Assembly (NCBI GenBank): GCA_020850325.1
Contig: JADZEW010000015.1
Coordinates: 62,001-126,000 of the forward strand
DNA: 64,000 nt
Direction of reading: 5' to 3'
From: Methanoregulaceae archaeon
GTDB lineage: Bacteria; Armatimonadota; Fimbriimonadia; Fimbriimonadales; Fimbriimonadaceae
Shown here piece after piece: positions 1,438 through 19,522 of this stretch; the stretch's first letter is position 1; each line of letters starts with the position of its first letter. The notes beneath the pieces are model-generated. The model was not told where the DNA came from. It worked only from the letters and a program-made list of their open reading frames with translations, and made no database searches. The position numbers were made by a program, and so were the translations under genes.

Positions 1438-3963
1438 CTAGGGCGATTCGACGTCCAGCGCTCCGCGTTTCTCTAGGAACTCGGCGAACTCAACTTCAGT
1501 TAGCTCCGCACCGATCGCCGCCTCCGCCTCAAAGCTCTCACCAAGCGCCTCGCGGGCAATCATAAGGGCCTCATCGTAATCGTCGACGGCCCAGGGGATC
1601 ATCCACATCGAGAATCGGCTTCGGAGCTTGCCCATAAGCCCGGAGACCGCCGCGGCCTGGCGATGCAATCCCTGGTGGACCAAAGCGGGAAGTAGCCGCA
1701 TCAGACTGGCCTGGGTGGCTCGTGCGTTGTGCTCGCGGATAAAGGTGACGATGACCGTCTCAAGCATCGCCTGCGCGCGGGCATATTGCCGCTCGTGGCA
1801 AAGCAAGGAAGCCTCCGTAAGATCGAGGTTGTTACTCAGCAGTCCGGCCGGTTCAAAGCTCCGCGCACGCTCGAGGTATTCACGAACCCGTGGCAAATCG
1901 CGATTGGCCAAGTGGACATTCGCGCCGTTGATCAGGTTCGCAATGTGGGTGCTCCTGTCGTCCAAATCCGCAGACAGATCGCAGGCTCGCTCCACCGCGA
2001 CGATGGCCTCAGCCAAGCGAGGGATTCGACACAGTGCGAGCGCGTAGTTGGACATCAGCTTTGCCTCGATGACCGGGGATCCCATGTCCTTGGACAGCTC
2101 GAGGGCGCGCTGGAGATCGCCAGCGGCGTCGCGATGGCGCCCTTGCTGCATTCGCAGAATGCCCGACACGTTGCAGAGCCGAAGCTGCTCCAGCGTGGGG
2201 CGTTGAGCCGACTTGGCCAGCAGACGGCGGGCAAGGGTCTCCCCTTCCGCGAATCGGCCCTGTGAGTACCAATAATCGTAGAGCCCGTAAACGATCCGGA
2301 AGGGGACATCGTCGCGCACCGGCCCTCGCAGGTGCCGGTCGAGCACCTCGAGCAGAAACGGCAGGAGCCGATCGCACACCCGTACCCACTCCGCGAAATC
2401 TCGCGACGCCGAGTACAGGCTCTCCACCTCGTCGATGGCGTAGCGAGTGGCCCGATCCAGCGTGGCCGCCTCGTCGGCACTTCGTGATAGCTCTGACCGG
2501 GCAAACTGGCGGATCGGCTCCAACCATCGGTAGCCTTGGTCGTCGCGTTGGATGAAGGAGCCCTCCTCAAGCCGAGCGAGGATCTTCTCCGGTTGCCGCG
2601 AGGTGCAGAGGACGGTAGCCATCTCGGGGGTGAAACGGTCTGGGTACACCGAGAGGCAACGAAGGAGGCGCTGATCGCCAGGGCGCAACGATTCGTATCC
2701 CCAGCTTACGACGGCGGCCAGCGTTCGCGCGGCTCCGTTTCGCAAGTTGGGTTTGAGTTCGAGCATCGACTGCCGCACTTGGCGCTCGATACTCGCCAGG
2801 GCTCGGTGCGGATACTGCGCGGCGGCGAGCTCCAGCGCGAGCGGGAATCCGTCGAGATGCCGACAGATCGCGAGGATTGAGCGAAGCTGGGCTGGGTTCG
2901 GCTCAAACTCGGGGTGGTGCAAGCTGATCCGGTCGAGCACCAACTTCACCGCTGGCGAGCGCGTGTCGGTCGCGGGCAGGGGGCCCAGCCGGAACACGGA
3001 CTCGCCAGCCACTTTGAGCGGCCGACGGGACGTGACGAGAAACGCGACGTTAGGGCACGTTTGGCCAACCCGCTCGATGATTTCTGCCGCCGTATCGAGG
3101 ACACTCTCGGCGTTGTCGAGCAGGATCAGGGTCTCGCGATGCCGAAGCGTGTTCAGCAGGCGCTCCATCGGCGCCGCCTCCCCAAGTCGCGAATCGGGCA
3201 GTGCGCGCAATAGCGCTTCGGCCAAGGCATCACTGGTTGCCGAGCTGCGGCAGTCCACCCACCACACGCCATCGGGTTGCCGATCCAGTAACTCATAGCC
3301 CACCTGGACGGCGGTTCGAGTCTTGCCGATGCCCCCAGGACCGACCACGGTGACGAGTCGTGAGAGATAGAAGCGCTCGATGATGCCTTCGATATCATCA
3401 TTTCGCCCGACGAAGGCAGTGAACTGTCGGGGTAGGTTGTTCTTGAGGTGCGAAGCGGCCGGGGGATCGACCACGGGCGGCAACGAAGGATGGTCGAGCG
3501 CGGAAATCGGTTCTGGGGCGTCCGCCGCTGCCAAGCGCCGCCATCGGGCAGCATCGAGGGGCTCCTCTCCGCATAAGGTCACGGTCGCCAGGTCTGCGAC
3601 AATCGCCCCTTCCGGCGCGGATCCCCGTAGCCGCTCGGCCCGGGAGAGCACACTCTGCGGCACGGTGTTTCGGTCCGGTTGCTCGTGGACGAGGATGACC
3701 AAACGCGCGGGGCATCCTTCCTCGGCCAGGCGAGTCTGGATTGCGATCGCGGCTTCGATCGTGGGGCAAACCGTCTCGAATAGCCCCAAAGCCGAGGATT
3801 CGATCTGCATATCTTGCGCGGCAACGCCCCCCGATTCCCTGACTAAAGCGGCGATCCATGCCCCAAGTTCGTTGACATGCCGAGCGGCAGACGGGCCATC
3901 AATCCTCGAACGCCGATCTAGGATCGGAATATCCAGGCTGAGCCAGCATACGATTCTCGACAT
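1438..3963 (-). CDS. NB-ARC/TPR signalling ATPase with degenerate cyclase-like N-terminus
   Basis: An 841-residue multidomain regulator starting with ATG at 3963. Residues 1-165 resemble a class III nucleotide-cyclase homology domain in length and fold pattern, but I see no intact metal-binding Asp pair, so it is probably a non-catalytic sensor. Residues 180-430 form an NB-ARC/STAND ATPase: FVGRNDDIEGI, Walker A GPGGIGKT (208-215), and Walker B LILLDNAE near 280. The remaining 400 residues are TPR-like helices (LSNYALALCRIPRLAEAI and similar). STAND ATPases of this layout act as ligand-gated switches or transcriptional regulators; no DNA-binding domain is visible here. It is divergent from the exported oxidoreductase gene at 4024, 60 bp away, and a TACAAT (-) at 3975-3980 could be its -10. 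Function remains inferred. Confidence 0.7.
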   Translation of the reverse strand: MSRIVCWLSLDIPILDRRSRIDGPSAARHVNELGAWIAALVRESGGVAAQDMQIESSALGLFETVCPTIEAAIAIQTRLAEEGCPARLVILVHEQPDRNTVPQSVLSRAERLRGSAPEGAIVADLATVTLCGEEPLDAARWRRLAAADAPEPISALDHPSLPPVVDPPAASHLKNNLPRQFTAFVGRNDDIEGIIERFYLSRLVTVVGPGGIGKTRTAVQVGYELLDRQPDGVWWVDCRSSATSDALAEALLRALPDSRLGEAAPMERLLNTLRHRETLILLDNAESVLDTAAEIIERVGQTCPNVAFLVTSRRPLKVAGESVFRLGPLPATDTRSPAVKLVLDRISLHHPEFEPNPAQLRSILAICRHLDGFPLALELAAAQYPHRALASIERQVRQSMLELKPNLRNGAARTLAAVVSWGYESLRPGDQRLLRCLSVYPDRFTPEMATVLCTSRQPEKILARLEEGSFIQRDDQGYRWLEPIRQFARSELSRSADEAATLDRATRYAIDEVESLYSASRDFAEWVRVCDRLLPFLLEVLDRHLRGPVRDDVPFRIVYGLYDYWYSQGRFAEGETLARRLLAKSAQRPTLEQLRLCNVSGILRMQQGRHRDAAGDLQRALELSKDMGSPVIEAKLMSNYALALCRIPRLAEAIVAVERACDLSADLDDRSTHIANLINGANVHLANRDLPRVREYLERARSFEPAGLLSNNLDLTEASLLCHERQYARAQAMLETVIVTFIREHNARATQASLMRLLPALVHQGLHRQAAAVSGLMGKLRSRFSMWMIPWAVDDYDEALMIAREALGESFEAEAAIGAELTEVEFAEFLEKRGALDVESP

Positions 3964-13961: not shown

Positions 13962-15137
13962 CTAGCCCAACAGCGCGTCCCATAGCCAGCGTGCACACCC
14001 GAGTTTGCTTCGGCGGCCGCTGGACGAGGGCTCCCCGTCCGCGCGGAGCAGGGTCAGTTCGTTCTCACCCGATTCGAAGCCGATCTCGGCCCTCGACACA
14101 TCGTTGACGGCGATCGCGTGGACACCCTTCCGGCGCATCTTCTCACGGGCGGCCTGAAGGTCGTCGCTCGGCTCGGCGGCAAAGGCGATGACCCTCGCCT
14201 GCGGGTTCGCCGACGCCACCTCGGCGATGATGTCCGGGTTCGGAGTCAGTTCGATCTGGAGGTTGCCCTCGCCTCGCCGCATCTTTCCACGCACCGGATT
14301 CGCGGGGCGATAGTCGGCCACCGCGGCGACCCCAATCACCCAATCGGCATCCTTGGCGGCGGTAAGCGCGGCATCGCGCATTTCGAGCGCGCTCGTCACC
14401 CGCACGACATTCGCGAGGCGCGGCAACGGAACCGAGGTCGGGCCCGAGATCACGGTCACCTTCGCACCGAGGCTCAGCGCCACCTGGGCGACCGCCGCGC
14501 CCATCTTGCCGCTGCTCCGATTCGAGAGGAACCGAACATCGTCGATCGCCTCCTGGGTCGGGCCGGACGTGATGACGACGTGCTTGCCCTCCAGCCGAGT
14601 GCGATCGGCAAGCGCGGCGAGACTCTCTTCGACGATGCGGGCGTTCGAGGCGAGTTTGCCTTGGCCATTCTCTCCGCAAGCGACGTCGCCTTCGGCAGGC
14701 TCGACCATCCAGGCGCCACGCTCCTGTAGCGTCTTGAGATGCGCCTGGGTGGCGGGGTGGAGGTACATCGCCGGGTTCATCGCTGGCGCGATGAGCAGGG
14801 GGCCTTCGTACGCCAGCGCGAGGGTCGACAGCATGTCGTCCCCGCGTCCCTCCGCGATCTTCGCAAGTGTGTTCGCGCTCGCCGGGGCGACGAGCAACAA
14901 GTCGGCTTGGCGAGCCCAATCGATGTGCGCCATGCGGCCCCGCTCGGGCTCCTCGAAGGTGTCGATGAGGCACGGCTGACCGGTCAGGGCTTCAAAGAGG
15001 GCTGGACGGACGAACTCTTGGGCGGCATCGGTGAGGCAGACCCGGACTTCGCATCCGGCGCGCATCAAGTCGCGAGCCAAGTCGGCCGCGCGGTAGGCGG
15101 CGACGCTTCCGGAAACGCCGAGGACGACCCGTTTCAC
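13962..15137 (-). CDS. coaBC: Bifunctional phosphopantothenoylcysteine decarboxylase/synthase
   Basis: A 391-residue fusion enzyme of coenzyme A synthesis. The N-terminal CoaC flavoprotein part (about 1-180) has VSGSVAAYRA, the PASANTLAK segment, PAMNPAMY (substrate-recognition motif) and CGENGQGKLA around the active Cys. The C-terminal CoaB part (about 185-391) has ITSGPTQEAIDDVRFLSNRS, with SSGKMG binding CTP, and the AVADYRPANP segment. It ligates cysteine to 4'-phosphopantothenate and then decarboxylates the product. The ATG at 15137 overlaps the gmk stop by 4 bp, so it is the last gene of the yvlD-yvcK-gmk-coaBC operon. In many bacteria rpoZ lies between gmk and coaBC; there is no room for it here. 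Confidence 0.96.
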   Translation of the reverse strand: MKRVVLGVSGSVAAYRAADLARDLMRAGCEVRVCLTDAAQEFVRPALFEALTGQPCLIDTFEEPERGRMAHIDWARQADLLLVAPASANTLAKIAEGRGDDMLSTLALAYEGPLLIAPAMNPAMYLHPATQAHLKTLQERGAWMVEPAEGDVACGENGQGKLASNARIVEESLAALADRTRLEGKHVVITSGPTQEAIDDVRFLSNRSSGKMGAAVAQVALSLGAKVTVISGPTSVPLPRLANVVRVTSALEMRDAALTAAKDADWVIGVAAVADYRPANPVRGKMRRGEGNLQIELTPNPDIIAEVASANPQARVIAFAAEPSDDLQAAREKMRRKGVHAIAVNDVSRAEIGFESGENELTLLRADGEPSSSGRRSKLGCARWLWDALLG

Positions 15138-15679
15138 CGGACGATCTCCATGATCTCGGCCGCCGCCCGGTCGAGGTCGTCGTTGACGACGCGATGCTGA
15201 TACCGGTCCGAGAGCGCAATCTCGTCGCGAGCGTTCTTCAACCGCTTTTGGATGGTCGCCTCGTCGTCGGTTCCGCGCTTGCGGATGCGCCGCTCCAGTT
15301 CCTCCGCCGACGGAGGCAACAGGAAAATCGAGATCGCATCGTCGCGCTTCTCCATGACCGCAAGCGCACCTTGAACATCGATCTTCAGCACCGCAATCCG
15401 ACCGTCCGCGAGAAGCGCTTCCATATCCGTGAGCGGGGTTGCGTACAAGTTTTCGTGAACTTCTTTGTATTCAAGGAAGTCGCCCGCCTCGGCCTTCGCC
15501 ATAAACTGCTCGCGCGTTACAAAGTGGTAGTCGACTCCATCCACCTCGCCCGTGCGTGGCGCACGGGTGCAGTAGGCGACCACCCGAACCACCCGCGGAT
15601 CGGCCGCTTTCCAGCGATCCAGTACGGAGTCCTTGCCCACCCCGCTCGGGCCGCTCAGGATCACGAGGCGCCCGCTCAT
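15134..15679 (-). CDS. gmk: Guanylate kinase
   Basis: A 181-residue cytoplasmic kinase converting GMP plus ATP to GDP plus ADP. It has the P-loop GPSGVGKDS at 10-18, the GMP-binding block TRAPRTGEVDGVDYHFV, then DFLEYKEVHENLYATP, IDVQGA and IFLLPPSAEELERR. Two positions differ from the usual consensus: GKDS in place of GKGT/S, and YATP in place of YGTP. The GKD form recalls the related kinase PhnN, but the TRxPRxGE and IDVQGA blocks favour guanylate kinase. It overlaps yvcK by 4 bp upstream and coaBC by 4 bp downstream. Confidence 0.93.
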   Translation of the reverse strand: MSGRLVILSGPSGVGKDSVLDRWKAADPRVVRVVAYCTRAPRTGEVDGVDYHFVTREQFMAKAEAGDFLEYKEVHENLYATPLTDMEALLADGRIAVLKIDVQGALAVMEKRDDAISIFLLPPSAEELERRIRKRGTDDEATIQKRLKNARDEIALSDRYQHRVVNDDLDRAAAEIMEIVR

Positions 15680-16989
15680 GCGCGCTCCACCAGGCTCATC
15701 AGCCGGGCCGCGAGCCGCATCGGATCGTGACGCACCATATCGGTTTCGTTCATGTAGTCACCGGGAAGTACACGATAGCCCATCGCTCGGATTCGGTCGA
15801 GGTCCGGCTCGACGAGCGACTGTCCGGCCCCGCGGTACTTGTCGAGGGTCGAACTGCTTGGGATTCCCGTGTTTACCATCACGTAATCGAAGAGCCGATG
15901 GTCGATGTTCGCCCGGACCGCCCCCACGTGCTCCGCCGCCGAAAACGAGTCGCTCTCGCCGCGTTGGGTCATGACGTTGCAGATGTACGCCTTCTTGGCA
16001 TGCGAGGCATCGATCGCTTCGGCGATGCCCGGAACGAGGAGATTGGGGATCACGGACGTGAAAACGCTTCCGGGTCCGACACAGATGAGATCGGCCTCTC
16101 GGATCGCGGTGAGCGCGGTCTCGTTGGCGGCAACATCGCCCGGGTCCAGGTAGATCCGGCGGATGCGCTTGGCCGCCCCGACAATCGTCGTTTCGCCGAC
16201 CAGCTCCTCGCCATCCTCCATGAGGGCCTTGAGGTGGACATGCTCCAGAGTCGACGGTACGACCCGTCCGCGGATGGCCAAAACGTCGCTCGCGATTTCG
16301 ATCGCTTTTTCGAAGTCGCCATGCGCCTGCGCGGTCAGTGCGGCGATGAGCAGGTTGCCGAGCGAGTGGCCAGAGAGTGAGCCGCTGCCGCCGGCGAACC
16401 GATGTTGAAACAAGTCGGTCATCGACTTTTCTGCGTCGGCCAGCGCGACCAGGCAGTTGCGGATGTCTCCCGGCGGAATCAAGCCAAGTTCTTCGGTGAG
16501 TCGGCCGCTCGATCCTCCGTCGTCCGTCACGGTCACGACTGCAGTGATGTTTGATGTGTACGTCTTCAACCCACGGAGCAGGGTGCTCAGACCCGTTCCG
16601 CCGCCGAGGACGACGATGCGCGGCCCCTGCGCCAAGACCAGCCTGCGCCGAAATGTGTCGGCAAGGCCGTTCTTGGCATCTGGGTTCAAGATGTTGAAGA
16701 GACTCCGCAAGCTGGCCCGCACGGCCTGCACGACCAAGATCAAGCCGACGAGAAGTAAGACCCCGCCGAGAACGTGGCGTGCGCCCTCCAGATTCTCCGC
16801 GGCCACAAACTGGTTCAGCACCGCGTCGGTGCGCCGGGTGAGCACGTCGATCATGCTCGGAATTTGAACTCGGAAGCTGATAACGAATCCGAGGACGAAA
16901 CAGGCGAGTCCGACGATCAAATAGACGGCGGCCTTCCGGAAACCCGCGGTCGGTGCGATGAACTTCCGAAAGCGGTAGCGCCGGATCAA
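15676..16989 (-). CDS. yvcK: YvcK/CofD-family gluconeogenesis factor with N-terminal membrane anchor
   Basis: A 437-residue protein. Residues 21-39 and 73-92 are hydrophobic membrane segments. The YvcK domain begins at about 123 with RIVVLGGGTGLSTLLRGLK and continues through VTVTDDGGSSGRLTEELGL, PPGDIRNCLVALA and SLSGHSLGNLL. YvcK proteins bind UDP-sugars and are needed for cell-wall precursor balance and growth on gluconeogenic carbon in several bacteria. The commonly studied YvcK is soluble; the two membrane helices here would put the domain at the cytoplasmic membrane. It overlaps both neighbours by 4 bp. The usual neighbours rapZ and whiA are not present. Confidence 0.9.
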   Translation of the reverse strand: MIRRYRFRKFIAPTAGFRKAAVYLIVGLACFVLGFVISFRVQIPSMIDVLTRRTDAVLNQFVAAENLEGARHVLGGVLLLVGLILVVQAVRASLRSLFNILNPDAKNGLADTFRRRLVLAQGPRIVVLGGGTGLSTLLRGLKTYTSNITAVVTVTDDGGSSGRLTEELGLIPPGDIRNCLVALADAEKSMTDLFQHRFAGGSGSLSGHSLGNLLIAALTAQAHGDFEKAIEIASDVLAIRGRVVPSTLEHVHLKALMEDGEELVGETTIVGAAKRIRRIYLDPGDVAANETALTAIREADLICVGPGSVFTSVIPNLLVPGIAEAIDASHAKKAYICNVMTQRGESDSFSAAEHVGAVRANIDHRLFDYVMVNTGIPSSSTLDKYRGAGQSLVEPDLDRIRAMGYRVLPGDYMNETDMVRHDPMRLAARLMSLVERA

Positions 16990-17384
16990 TCGTCCTCCTT
17001 GGCGGACTTCTTGTCTTCGTCTTTCATCAGGATGCTGCGAAGGATCGAGCTAACGATCGAGATGACCAAGCTTCCGATGAACGCGGTCTTGAAGCGATCC
17101 CAACCTTCTCCAGGAATGCGGAAGCCCCACTCGAGCGAGGCGGCCACCATGAGAATGACCGCATTGATCGCCAAAGCCGAAATGCCAAAGGTCAAGCACG
17201 TGAGCGGCAGCGTGATCAACTTGAGGATCGAGCCGAGCGTGGCGTTCAAGAACGACAGCACGGCGACGCCCAGCATGAACTCAAGCCAGGCGCCTTCTTC
17301 GATCTCAAAAGGCAACCCGAGTTTCTGGGCCACAAAGGCTCCGACCAACACCGAGAGTGCAAGAATCAGCCAGCGTAGGATCAC
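16986..17384 (-). CDS. YvlD-type four-helix membrane protein (phage holin family IV homologue)
   Basis: A 132-residue integral membrane protein with four predicted helices and the family pattern: LGVAVLSFLNATLGSILKLI, then LPLTCLTFGISALAINAVIL and a charged tail (KDEDKKSAKEDD). Despite the holin family name, members are chromosomal envelope proteins and nothing else here suggests a phage. The GTG at 17384 is the first start of the yvlD-yvcK-gmk-coaBC operon, with a GATAAT (-) 8 nt upstream. Confidence 0.8.
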   Translation of the reverse strand: MILRWLILALSVLVGAFVAQKLGLPFEIEEGAWLEFMLGVAVLSFLNATLGSILKLITLPLTCLTFGISALAINAVILMVAASLEWGFRIPGEGWDRFKTAFIGSLVISIVSSILRSILMKDEDKKSAKEDD

Positions 17385-17419: not shown

Positions 17420-18481
17420 GTGCCGCCTCTGGGTTCACCACTGATCTTGGACGGGGCTTACGGCGAAGGCGGAGGCACGCTGGTCCGGACCGCACTCGCG
17501 ATGTCCGCGCTCACCCAGCAGCCGTTTCGACTCGAGAACGTTCGGGGCGCCCAAAGTCGCCAGGGCCTGTTAAGCGAAGACCTGACCGTGCTTCGGGCGC
17601 TTGCCCTTTCGTGCTCGGCCGAGACGGTCGGGGCGGAACTAGGCTCTTCGCAGCTCAGCTTTCTTCCCACCCGGGCCGCCCGGACCCTGCATGAGCGGCT
17701 TGAGCCCGTCGCCGATGGGGAGGGCAAAGGACACGCGAACGCCAATGTCGTCTTGAGTTCTCTGGCCCCGGTCATGGCCCGGAGCGGAGGGTACTCGACG
17801 CTCTTCGCGGTCGGCGAGACGTTTGGACGGCACGTGCTCGGTTACGATTCATTTGCCCAAACCACGCTTGCGGTTTGGCGACGGCAAGGGCTCTACGCCT
17901 ATGCCGACATGCCGGTGGCAGGCTTTGGTCTGCAGTCGCGGGGTGAGGTCGCCTTGGAGATCGAGCCCAGCGTGTTGCAGGGCATGGACTGGAGCGACCG
18001 CGGGAGGTTGAAGTTAGCTCGCGCGATCGTGACCACCGCCGAACTGCCGGAGCCTGTCGGGGACCGAGGGGTGGAGCATATCGAGCGCCTTGGGCAGAGT
18101 GCTGGCGTTCCCATCGAAGCGGAGTCCATCCCCCTGCGGGCCAAGACCCCGGGTGCCCAGGTGACCGTTTGGGCGGAGTTCGAGCGCGGGCTGGCTGGCT
18201 TTGCCGCGTACGGACAGCGCGGTGTTCGAATCGAGACCATCGCCCAGCAAGCCGTTGACTCATTGCTACACTGGCAGACCTCCGACGCCACGGTCGATGA
18301 TCATCTTGCCGACCAAATCCTGATCAATGCGACGCTCGCCGAAGATCCGACGACCTTCAAGGTCGAGCGGCTGACGCCGCGTCTCTTGACGATGATCTGG
18401 GTGATCAAGCAGTTCCTGCCGATTCATTTGACGGTGAAGGGCGCGGAGGGAAAACCAGGAATCGTCACAATTCGTCGATGA
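17420..18481 (+). CDS. RtcA/Rcl1-family protein, likely not a conventional RNA 3'-phosphate cyclase
   Basis: A 353-residue protein aligned along its length to RNA 3'-terminal phosphate cyclases: DGAYGEGGGTLVRTALAMSA at the N-terminus, GAELGSSQLSF, and DHLADQILINATLAED near 295. In Escherichia coli RtcA (recalled sequence) the covalent-AMP nucleophile His309 sits in HLLTNI. Here the same place reads RLLTMI, with Arg321 (codon 18380-18382). The Gly/Ser-rich nucleotide segment (GSAGSC) and the NPSAPP block of RtcA are also not recognisable. The eukaryotic relative Rcl1 similarly lacks cyclase activity. The start GTG 17420 is supported by its close -10 box. No rtcB or rtcR in the window. Family secure, activity doubtful. 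Confidence 0.82.
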   Translation: MPPLGSPLILDGAYGEGGGTLVRTALAMSALTQQPFRLENVRGAQSRQGLLSEDLTVLRALALSCSAETVGAELGSSQLSFLPTRAARTLHERLEPVADGEGKGHANANVVLSSLAPVMARSGGYSTLFAVGETFGRHVLGYDSFAQTTLAVWRRQGLYAYADMPVAGFGLQSRGEVALEIEPSVLQGMDWSDRGRLKLARAIVTTAELPEPVGDRGVEHIERLGQSAGVPIEAESIPLRAKTPGAQVTVWAEFERGLAGFAAYGQRGVRIETIAQQAVDSLLHWQTSDATVDDHLADQILINATLAEDPTTFKVERLTPRLLTMIWVIKQFLPIHLTVKGAEGKPGIVTIRR

Positions 18482-18658: not shown

Positions 18659-19522
18659 ATGCTCGACCAGGCACCGATGATAGATCCGGATGACGGGATT
18701 CCCAGTTACCTGGGAAGGCTGACCCAAGCCCCGTTGCTGTCTGCGCAACAGGAGGAGGAGCTAACCCGCCGCGTCCAAAATGGAGACGCGGAGGCGCGTC
18801 AGCGGCTGATCGAATGTAACATGCGCCTCGTCATCAACATTGCCCGCTCCTACCGCTGCAAAGCGGTGCCGCTCGAGGACTTGATCCAGGAGGGAGCAAT
18901 CGGTCTGATGCAGGCCGCAGAGCGATTCGATCCCAGCCGAGGCTTCCGATTCTCGACCTACGCAACGCACTGGATTCGCCAGGCGATTGGCCGAGCCATC
19001 GACAGCAAGTCGAAGGCGATTCGCGTTCCCGCCCACGTCAATCAAGCCCTGCGTCGCATCGAGCGCGAGCGTACTCGGCTTCTTCACGAGCTTGGCTACG
19101 AGCCGTCGATCGACACCTTGGCCGCGGCGATGGGCCTCACCACCCGCAAGCTCGTCTCGATCATGCACAGCTCGCAAGATCTGCTCAGCCTCGACATGAG
19201 TGTGGGCGATAGCGGTGGCGCGACTCTTGGGGGATTGATCCGGGACGAGCGGGTGACTTCCGATCCCGAGTCGAAGCTCCTCAGTGATGTGGTTTCGGAG
19301 GAACTTCGAGATGCCCTTTCCGAACTCAACGACCGTGAGCAGCGCGTGATGCGCATGCGATTGAGTCTGGATGACGGCCGCTCGCAACCCGTACTTCAAG
19401 AAGAAGTCGCCCGAGAGATGAAGCTATCGCGCGAACGGGTGCGGCAGATCGAGATTCAGGCGATCAAGAAACTTCGGCATATCGCCATGCAGCGCAAGCT
19501 CCGTGAAATCTTCAGCAACTAG
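18659..19522 (+). CDS. RNA polymerase sigma-70 family factor (group 2, RpoD/RpoS-like)
   Basis: A 287-residue sigma factor with region 1.2 ([20 protein letters not shown]), region 2 ([17 protein letters not shown], then [20 protein letters not shown] and [17 protein letters not shown]), region 3 and region 4 ([15 protein letters not shown], helix-turn-helix SRERVRQIE). Region 1.1 and the long non-conserved insert of a primary sigma factor are absent, so it is probably an alternative or second housekeeping-type factor. AAAGGAG at about 18636-18642 precedes ATG 18659, so this gene has a conventional leader. The 177-bp gap upstream has no other gene and no clear promoter to my eye. Its TAG stop overlaps the stop of the convergent DnaJ-domain gene in a CTAG. 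Confidence 0.92.

Follow-up and report, generated by a model that had tools for sequence, protein, structure and literature searches.

What does an RNA 3'-phosphate cyclase become once the residue that carries its nucleotide is gone? The question is raised by an RtcA-like gene at positions 17420–18481 (plus strand) of the window, the whole stretch of 64,000 nucleotides analysed here, which comes from a member of the Fimbriimonadaceae. The RtcA-AMP intermediate is established for E. coli RtcA, in which we take His309 to be the AMP-carrying nucleophile; an earlier note on this DNA had placed an arginine at that position. To our knowledge, eukaryotic Rcl1, whose role has long been argued over, is the sole well-known cyclase-dead RTC protein, and our literature searches did not find a description of a bacterial RtcA without the histidine.

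The reading frame starts with GTG and its translation gives 353 amino acids with no internal stop (protein P0001); the window's genome has no other RTC-family gene. The Pfam families RTC (136.9 bits) and RTC_insert (49.3 bits) both match above their cut-offs, the curated RtcA equivalog models TIGR03399 (198.4 bits against a cut-off of 250.05) and NF003246 (216.2 against 352) score it below theirs, and the Rcl1 model TIGR03400 stays far below its own (22.1 against 227.95). The AlphaFold2 model (pLDDT 95.3, pTM 0.92) superposes on P. horikoshii RtcA (4o89) with a Z of 44.8 and an rmsd of 1.6 over 338 aligned residues and on E. coli RtcA with a Z of 40.8, the RtcA superpositions spanning 333–338 residues, compared with a Z of 34.1 for yeast Rcl1. 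P0001 is an RTC-fold protein with an insert domain, and it shares this fold and 27–29% identity with RtcA (PF01137, TIGR03399; structures 1qmh, 3kgd, 3tut and 4o89). The nearest named record, at 98% identity, is a Fimbriimonadaceae MAG (L032), and a contig scan with patterns drawn from P0001 alone returned the near-identical congener as its sole match. The gene is adjoined by a divergent, tightly packed minus-strand cluster with overlapping gene ends (13962–17384), in which Pfam identifies a holin-like membrane protein (16986–17384), a CofD family protein (15676–16989), a guanylate kinase (15134–15679) and a CoaBC-type flavoprotein (13962–15137); a sigma-70-family gene (18659–19522, also by Pfam) lies on the other flank. 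A promoter-like site was looked for 5' of the RtcA-like gene and none was found, and, unlike in RtcA systems, neither rtcB nor rtcR adjoins the gene in the window.

In the phmmer alignment with E. coli RtcA (1qmh/3kgd), ...RLTPRLLTMIWVIKQFLP of P0001 pairs with ...AHPSCHLLTNIAVVERFLP, and Arg321 (codon 18380–18382, plus strand) therefore stands opposite His309, just as the earlier note had read it; in the model this arginine begins the helix 320–332. A residue census found arginine here in all 49 Fimbriimonadaceae rows (48 distinct sequences, the rows being P0001, the copy L001 from its own genome, the near-identical L032 and 46 others), threonine in all eight sequences of the sister family, and histidine in each of 38 canonical RtcAs, namely 36 from armatimonads plus those of E. 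coli and P. horikoshii. The histidine is also kept in the RtcAs of Halorussus, Halobaculum, Xanthomonas, Methylosinus and Novosphingobium, and His309, Gln51, His52 and Arg43 are all intact in the RtcAs examined from other phyla (pocket residues, that is Glu14, Gln18, Arg21, Arg40, Arg43, Gln51, His52, Gly124, Pro131, Asp287 and Gln288, are numbered throughout as in E. coli RtcA). Two findings would have spoken against the non-cyclase branch suggested in the earlier note, namely relatives that keep the histidine or another conserved histidine in its place, and neither was obtained. The relatives in the census carry arginine or threonine, a conserved replacement that rules out an isolated mutation, and the best histidine column in the clade alignment reaches at most 61%, so that no substitute is conserved. 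Lys330 was considered as an alternative nucleophile and rejected by reasoning only, since it lies nine residues beyond Arg321 in the helix and should face away. Without His309 the RtcA-AMP intermediate could not form as it does in RtcA, and RNA 3' phosphates would hence not be cyclised; judged from the sequences, covalent His-AMP chemistry is very probably absent, and the protein is, with only a little less assurance, presumed not to be a cyclase.

The divergent form is widespread within a narrow range. The initial relatives search covered 61 genomes, 57 of which have a Pfam RTC match. A profile built from the divergent form (A1) and searched against 291 Armatimonadota genomes matches all 85 Fimbriimonadaceae and all 8 sister-family genomes, family counts being made by eye from listings; by a count from the listing, the scores in these two families exceed those of all other genomes bar a few partial or eroded copies. 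A further family of the same order has canonical RtcA copies only, and in two families with one genome each no RTC match was obtained. The divergent form and a canonical, histidine-bearing RtcA occur together in G013, G030, G127 and G142 (Fimbriimonadaceae) and in G042 and G050 (sister family), a pattern compatible with gene duplication or with acquisition of a second copy. None of the viral contigs encodes a relative of the protein, and plasmid records gave RtcA matches only, at 28–33% identity, the five sequences that were read all having the histidine. A maximum-likelihood tree, built from 98 sequences, unites the 57 of the divergent form in a single clade (UFBoot 100, stem 0.50) in which the Fimbriimonadaceae (97) and the sister family (100) are each recovered; the clade sits inside the bacterial RtcAs, and its closest relatives are canonical RtcAs of other Armatimonadota, in all examined members of which His309, Gln51, His52 and Arg43 are intact. 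The RtcA-like protein without the histidine probably dates back to an ancestor shared by two related Armatimonadota families. The earlier proposal of a distinct, conserved subfamily that lacks the catalytic histidine and is most likely not a cyclase is supported by this census of the two families against canonical RtcAs.

Lost active-site residues and scores below the RtcA equivalog cut-offs are also what a decaying relic or an isolated error (pseudogene, assembly artefact) would show. Such a relic, however, would hardly present one and the same residue, arginine, at position 309 across 48 distinct aligned Fimbriimonadaceae sequences, nor would the gene be found in all genomes searched of both families, with an intact reading frame even in the reduced ones. 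The ratio dN/dS is about 0.03 between the window's genome (G000) and its congener G001 (dN 0.012, dS 0.366), 0.12 for two genomes of the genus g4, and about 0.07 between G007 and G036, where dS is saturated; values of 0.03–0.12 argue for purifying selection rather than drift. The conserved replacement and these ratios together refute the reading as a relic, which we regard as scarcely credible.

The remainder of the active site has been altered unevenly. Glu14, Arg21, Arg40, Asp287 and Gln288, which we take to be part of the phosphate/metal pocket, are all found in P0001, together with the insert domain. Across the Fimbriimonadaceae rows they are retained in 49/49 (Glu14), 48/49 (Arg21), 49/49 (Arg40), 46/49 (Asp287) and 44/49 (Gln288). 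The segment with Glu14 is kept as Glu16-Gly-Gly-Gly (17465–17476, plus strand), its glutamate present also in all sister-family rows that cover the site, and the segment with Asp287 and Gln288 as LADQ (residues 296–299; 18305–18316, plus strand), with frequencies in the Fimbriimonadaceae of 0.94 for the aspartate and 0.90 for the glutamine. In contrast, Gln51, His52, Arg43 and Gln18 have no counterpart in the clade. Gln51 and His52, each present in 38/38 canonical RtcAs, are replaced in P0001 by Glu53-Asp54 (17576–17581, plus strand), with glutamate in 49/49 and aspartate in 48/49 Fimbriimonadaceae rows; the sister family has valine, isoleucine or methionine at the first position and aspartate at the second (8/8). 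Arg43, likewise in 38/38 canonical sequences, has given way to threonine, methionine, leucine, glutamine or serine in the Fimbriimonadaceae and to leucine in the sister family, and Gln18 is lost in both.

Gly124 and Pro131 are lost in the Fimbriimonadaceae only. Here ETFGRHVLGYD (17816–17848, plus strand) stands in place of the GTxxPxxPP block, with Gly124 changed to glutamate (Glu133, frequency 0.98, where the matching glycine has 1.00 in canonical RtcA) and Pro131 to leucine, the proline being lost in all members and retained in the sister family. The earlier note had described the Gly/Ser nucleotide segment and the NPSAPP block as lost and EGGG and LADQ as remaining; in the alignment to E. 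coli RtcA, GSAGSCTLV is indeed matched by GKGHANANVV and GTDNPSAPP by ETFGRHVLG, and GEGGG and LADQ are both seen. In the sister family, an RtcA-type GTHVPxSP block is retained although the nucleophile, Gln51, His52 and Arg43 are gone. Judged by these motifs, its form looks intermediate, with the nucleophile lost and the block kept, and on this ground the nucleophile would have been lost before further decay within bacteria.

The residues that persist raise the possibility that the protein is still an enzyme, in which the metal- and phosphate-binding residues catalyse a different reaction of nucleotides or RNA ends that is non-covalent (e.g., direct transfer or hydrolysis) and Arg321 serves as a phosphate-binding or transition-state residue. 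The near-complete retention of the five pocket residues is in keeping with this, as are the GEGGG window, which is still the most conserved in the Fimbriimonadaceae, and the arginine at position 309, whose invariance in that family would mean that the arginine itself is selected. However, the sister family has threonine at this position, four further residues of the site (Gln51, His52, Arg43 and Gln18) are gone, and in two reduced genomes the pocket is erased and yet the reading frame and its C-terminal segment persist. An enzyme of this kind therefore appears unlikely, although the five residues in nearly all Fimbriimonadaceae genomes of normal size could reflect some other residual activity and count against a purely binding role.

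The two reduced genomes, G029 and G157 (1.5 Mb, one genus), each have an intact 350-codon reading frame of the divergent form. The two copies share 38.5% identity overall and 26 of 34 identical residues at positions 319–353. Glu14, Arg21, Asp287, Gln288 and His309 are replaced in them (by F/H, T, W, L and S, respectively), and Arg40 is retained in G029 and not in G157; Glu-Pro-Ser, Lys330, Gln331, Phe332, Pro334, Thr338, Gly341 and Gly347 are retained in both. Almost the entire length of the G029 copy aligns with the clade profile (hhalign, 99.3%), and the model of the G157 copy has the RTC fold (pLDDT 84, Z 30.6 to 4o89), a fold that is not independent evidence since the alignment included relatives. 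The corresponding loci, L062 (G029) and L182 (G157), belong to small Fimbriimonadaceae genomes with strongly diverged proteins; L182 also has a leucine-rich-repeat-like reading frame at 2649–3512. Both genomes look like reduced, perhaps host-associated, relatives. As far as sequences can tell, these copies are the strongest hint that the function of the clade may not rest on the pocket, a hint from two genomes of one genus that could be a special case.

Measured as information per column against canonical RtcA, constraint is relaxed in the nucleotide loops and tightened elsewhere in the protein. Conservation has fallen in the Gly/Ser loop (−0.60 bits) and in the region of Arg40 and Gln51 (−0.34 bits) and has risen in the Glu-Pro-Ser stretch 180–186 (+1.31 bits), in the helix 319–335 (+0.62 bits) and in the strands 336–349 (+1.11 bits). 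The Glu-Pro-Ser motif (residues 182–184; 17963–17971, plus strand) is newly conserved in the clade, and the C-terminal segment 320–352 (18377–18475, plus strand) comprises the helix 320–332 with Lys330-Gln-Phe-x-Pro and the strands that follow. Lys330 occurs in 91% of the clade and 3% of canonical RtcAs, and in all three Rcl1s.

This lysine leads to the comparison with Rcl1, the cyclase-like protein of the eukaryotic SSU processome (TIGR03400; structures 4clq, 3pqv, 7mq8), which likewise has the RTC fold without the nucleophile and in which cyclase chemistry would be absent. It might be proposed that the clade is true Rcl1, derived with its eukaryotic counterpart from a common non-cyclase ancestor by vertical descent or transfer. 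The missing nucleophile and the lysine are shared, and the nucleophile position holds arginine in yeast and K. lactis Rcl1 as in P0001 (tyrosine in human Rcl1). Among 30 clade members, TIGR03400 matches 26 at E ≤ 0.001, with a best E of 1.7e-15, yet every one of the 30 matches RtcA models better. P0001 has 198 bits against the RtcA model as opposed to 22 and 14–17% identity to Rcl1, and its fold is closer to RtcA structures (Z 39–45) than to those of Rcl1 (Z 32–34). Rcl1 lacks Glu14, Asp287 and Gln288, with F/Y, P/S and L in their places, so that EGGG and LADQ, kept in the clade, are lost there; of the RDK/RHK cluster of Rcl1 (R327, D328 and K330 in yeast) P0001 shares Lys330 only and otherwise has W327 and V328; and the Rcl1 partner Bms1 is eukaryotic. 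The RtcA-type GTHVPxSP block of the sister family also speaks against Rcl1 ancestry, and in a second tree that included other phyla Rcl1 groups with archaeal RtcA (82/92). Forcing Rcl1 and the divergent clade together costs 15 log-likelihood units and is not rejected (p-AU 0.12), the Rcl1 branch being very long. Since the best tree separates the two, their separate origin is likely, not proven, and a shared origin is disfavoured; that the clade is Rcl1 in the strict sense we consider highly improbable. The description 'Rcl1-like' in the earlier note therefore holds by analogy, for the lost nucleophile and the lysine at yeast Rcl1 Lys330, and is not supported for descent or membership, given the model scores, the kept GEGGG and LADQ and the nesting within bacterial RtcAs, with the AU result as its remaining reservation.

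Gene neighbourhoods suggest a candidate partner. In 32 of 37 sampled Fimbriimonadaceae loci, efp, a gene for a membrane protein with eight cysteines and the RtcA-like gene follow each other on one strand, abutting or overlapping, and in 34 of 37 the last two are adjacent. The membrane protein, uncharacterised and about 365 amino acids long, matches no Pfam family and has eight cysteines that are invariant; its gene lies directly 3' of efp (alignment A2; outside the window, G000 C30:52399–53493 on the minus strand, and L162:8400–9536). A dedicated partnership of the RtcA-like protein with it, and possibly with EF-P, in a membrane- or translation-linked complex would be a special case of a binding role and does not compete with it. 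The 8-Cys gene was not detected in the two genomes with the most eroded RtcA-like gene, which agrees with such a partnership. But the efp–8-Cys adjacency is found across the phylum, also without an RtcA-like gene; the latter is unlinked to both in the window's genus, in G130 and in G149; and in the sister family it follows a CNNM/CorC_HlyC gene instead. As the pair occurs on its own and the RtcA-like gene lies elsewhere in some genomes, the association is suggestive only and the partnership rather doubtful. Exclusive dependence on the 8-Cys protein is ruled out, its gene being present in 271 of 291 Armatimonadota genomes. Dependence on RtcB is ruled out as well: RtcB is missing in 12 of the 37 Fimbriimonadaceae genomes searched, and its presence does not track the RtcA-like gene. 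The RtcB homologue of the window's genome lies outside the window (G000 C21:72161–73225). The best RtcB pieces in the Fimbriimonadaceae score about 140–236 bits, compared with 510–604 for most genomes of the family of the same order with canonical RtcA, and possibly represent a divergent RtcB type.

The explanation that we favour, and hold to be probable, is that P0001 belongs to a group of cyclase-dead, RtcA-derived binding proteins ('pseudocyclases') analogous to Rcl1. Since the fold, purifying selection and the new C-terminal conservation are kept and erosion of the pocket is tolerated, the protein most likely acts by binding, and we lean towards non-catalytic binding as its main function. 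What is left of the pocket may hold a phosphate, a nucleotide or an RNA end as a ligand, with no covalent step involved. The Glu-Pro-Ser motif may contact a putative partner together with the C-terminal helix and strands, and the protein could act as a scaffold or RNA-end sensor; that a partner is bound through the C-terminal segment is a tentative proposal. A binding role is reasonable in the light of two precedents: E. coli RtcA with catalytic mutations did not differ from the wild type in the outcome of an assay of the RtcR-RtcA-RtcB interaction (PMC9650030), and the RDK cluster of yeast Rcl1 is needed for Bms1 binding and not for cleavage, the nuclease being Utp24 (PMC4914098). Carried further, the clade might parallel Rcl1 in bacteria with an origin of its own, as a non-catalytic RTC-fold factor, fixed in one armatimonad lineage, that binds a partner in RNA processing, ribosome assembly or translation via its C-terminal helix, the one that yeast Rcl1 uses for Bms1. 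This stronger version is a long shot; if true, RtcA would have been turned from a cyclase into a scaffold twice.

Taken together, the nucleophile of RtcA was apparently lost independently in a bacterial lineage, and the gene was kept in every genome searched, which cautions against annotating such divergent genes as RNA 3'-phosphate cyclase. The graded intermediates, with the nucleophile lost and the nucleotide block kept in the sister family, both lost in the Fimbriimonadaceae, and the pocket erased and the C-terminal segment kept in the reduced genomes, allow a stepwise study of the roles that the RTC fold plays besides catalysis.
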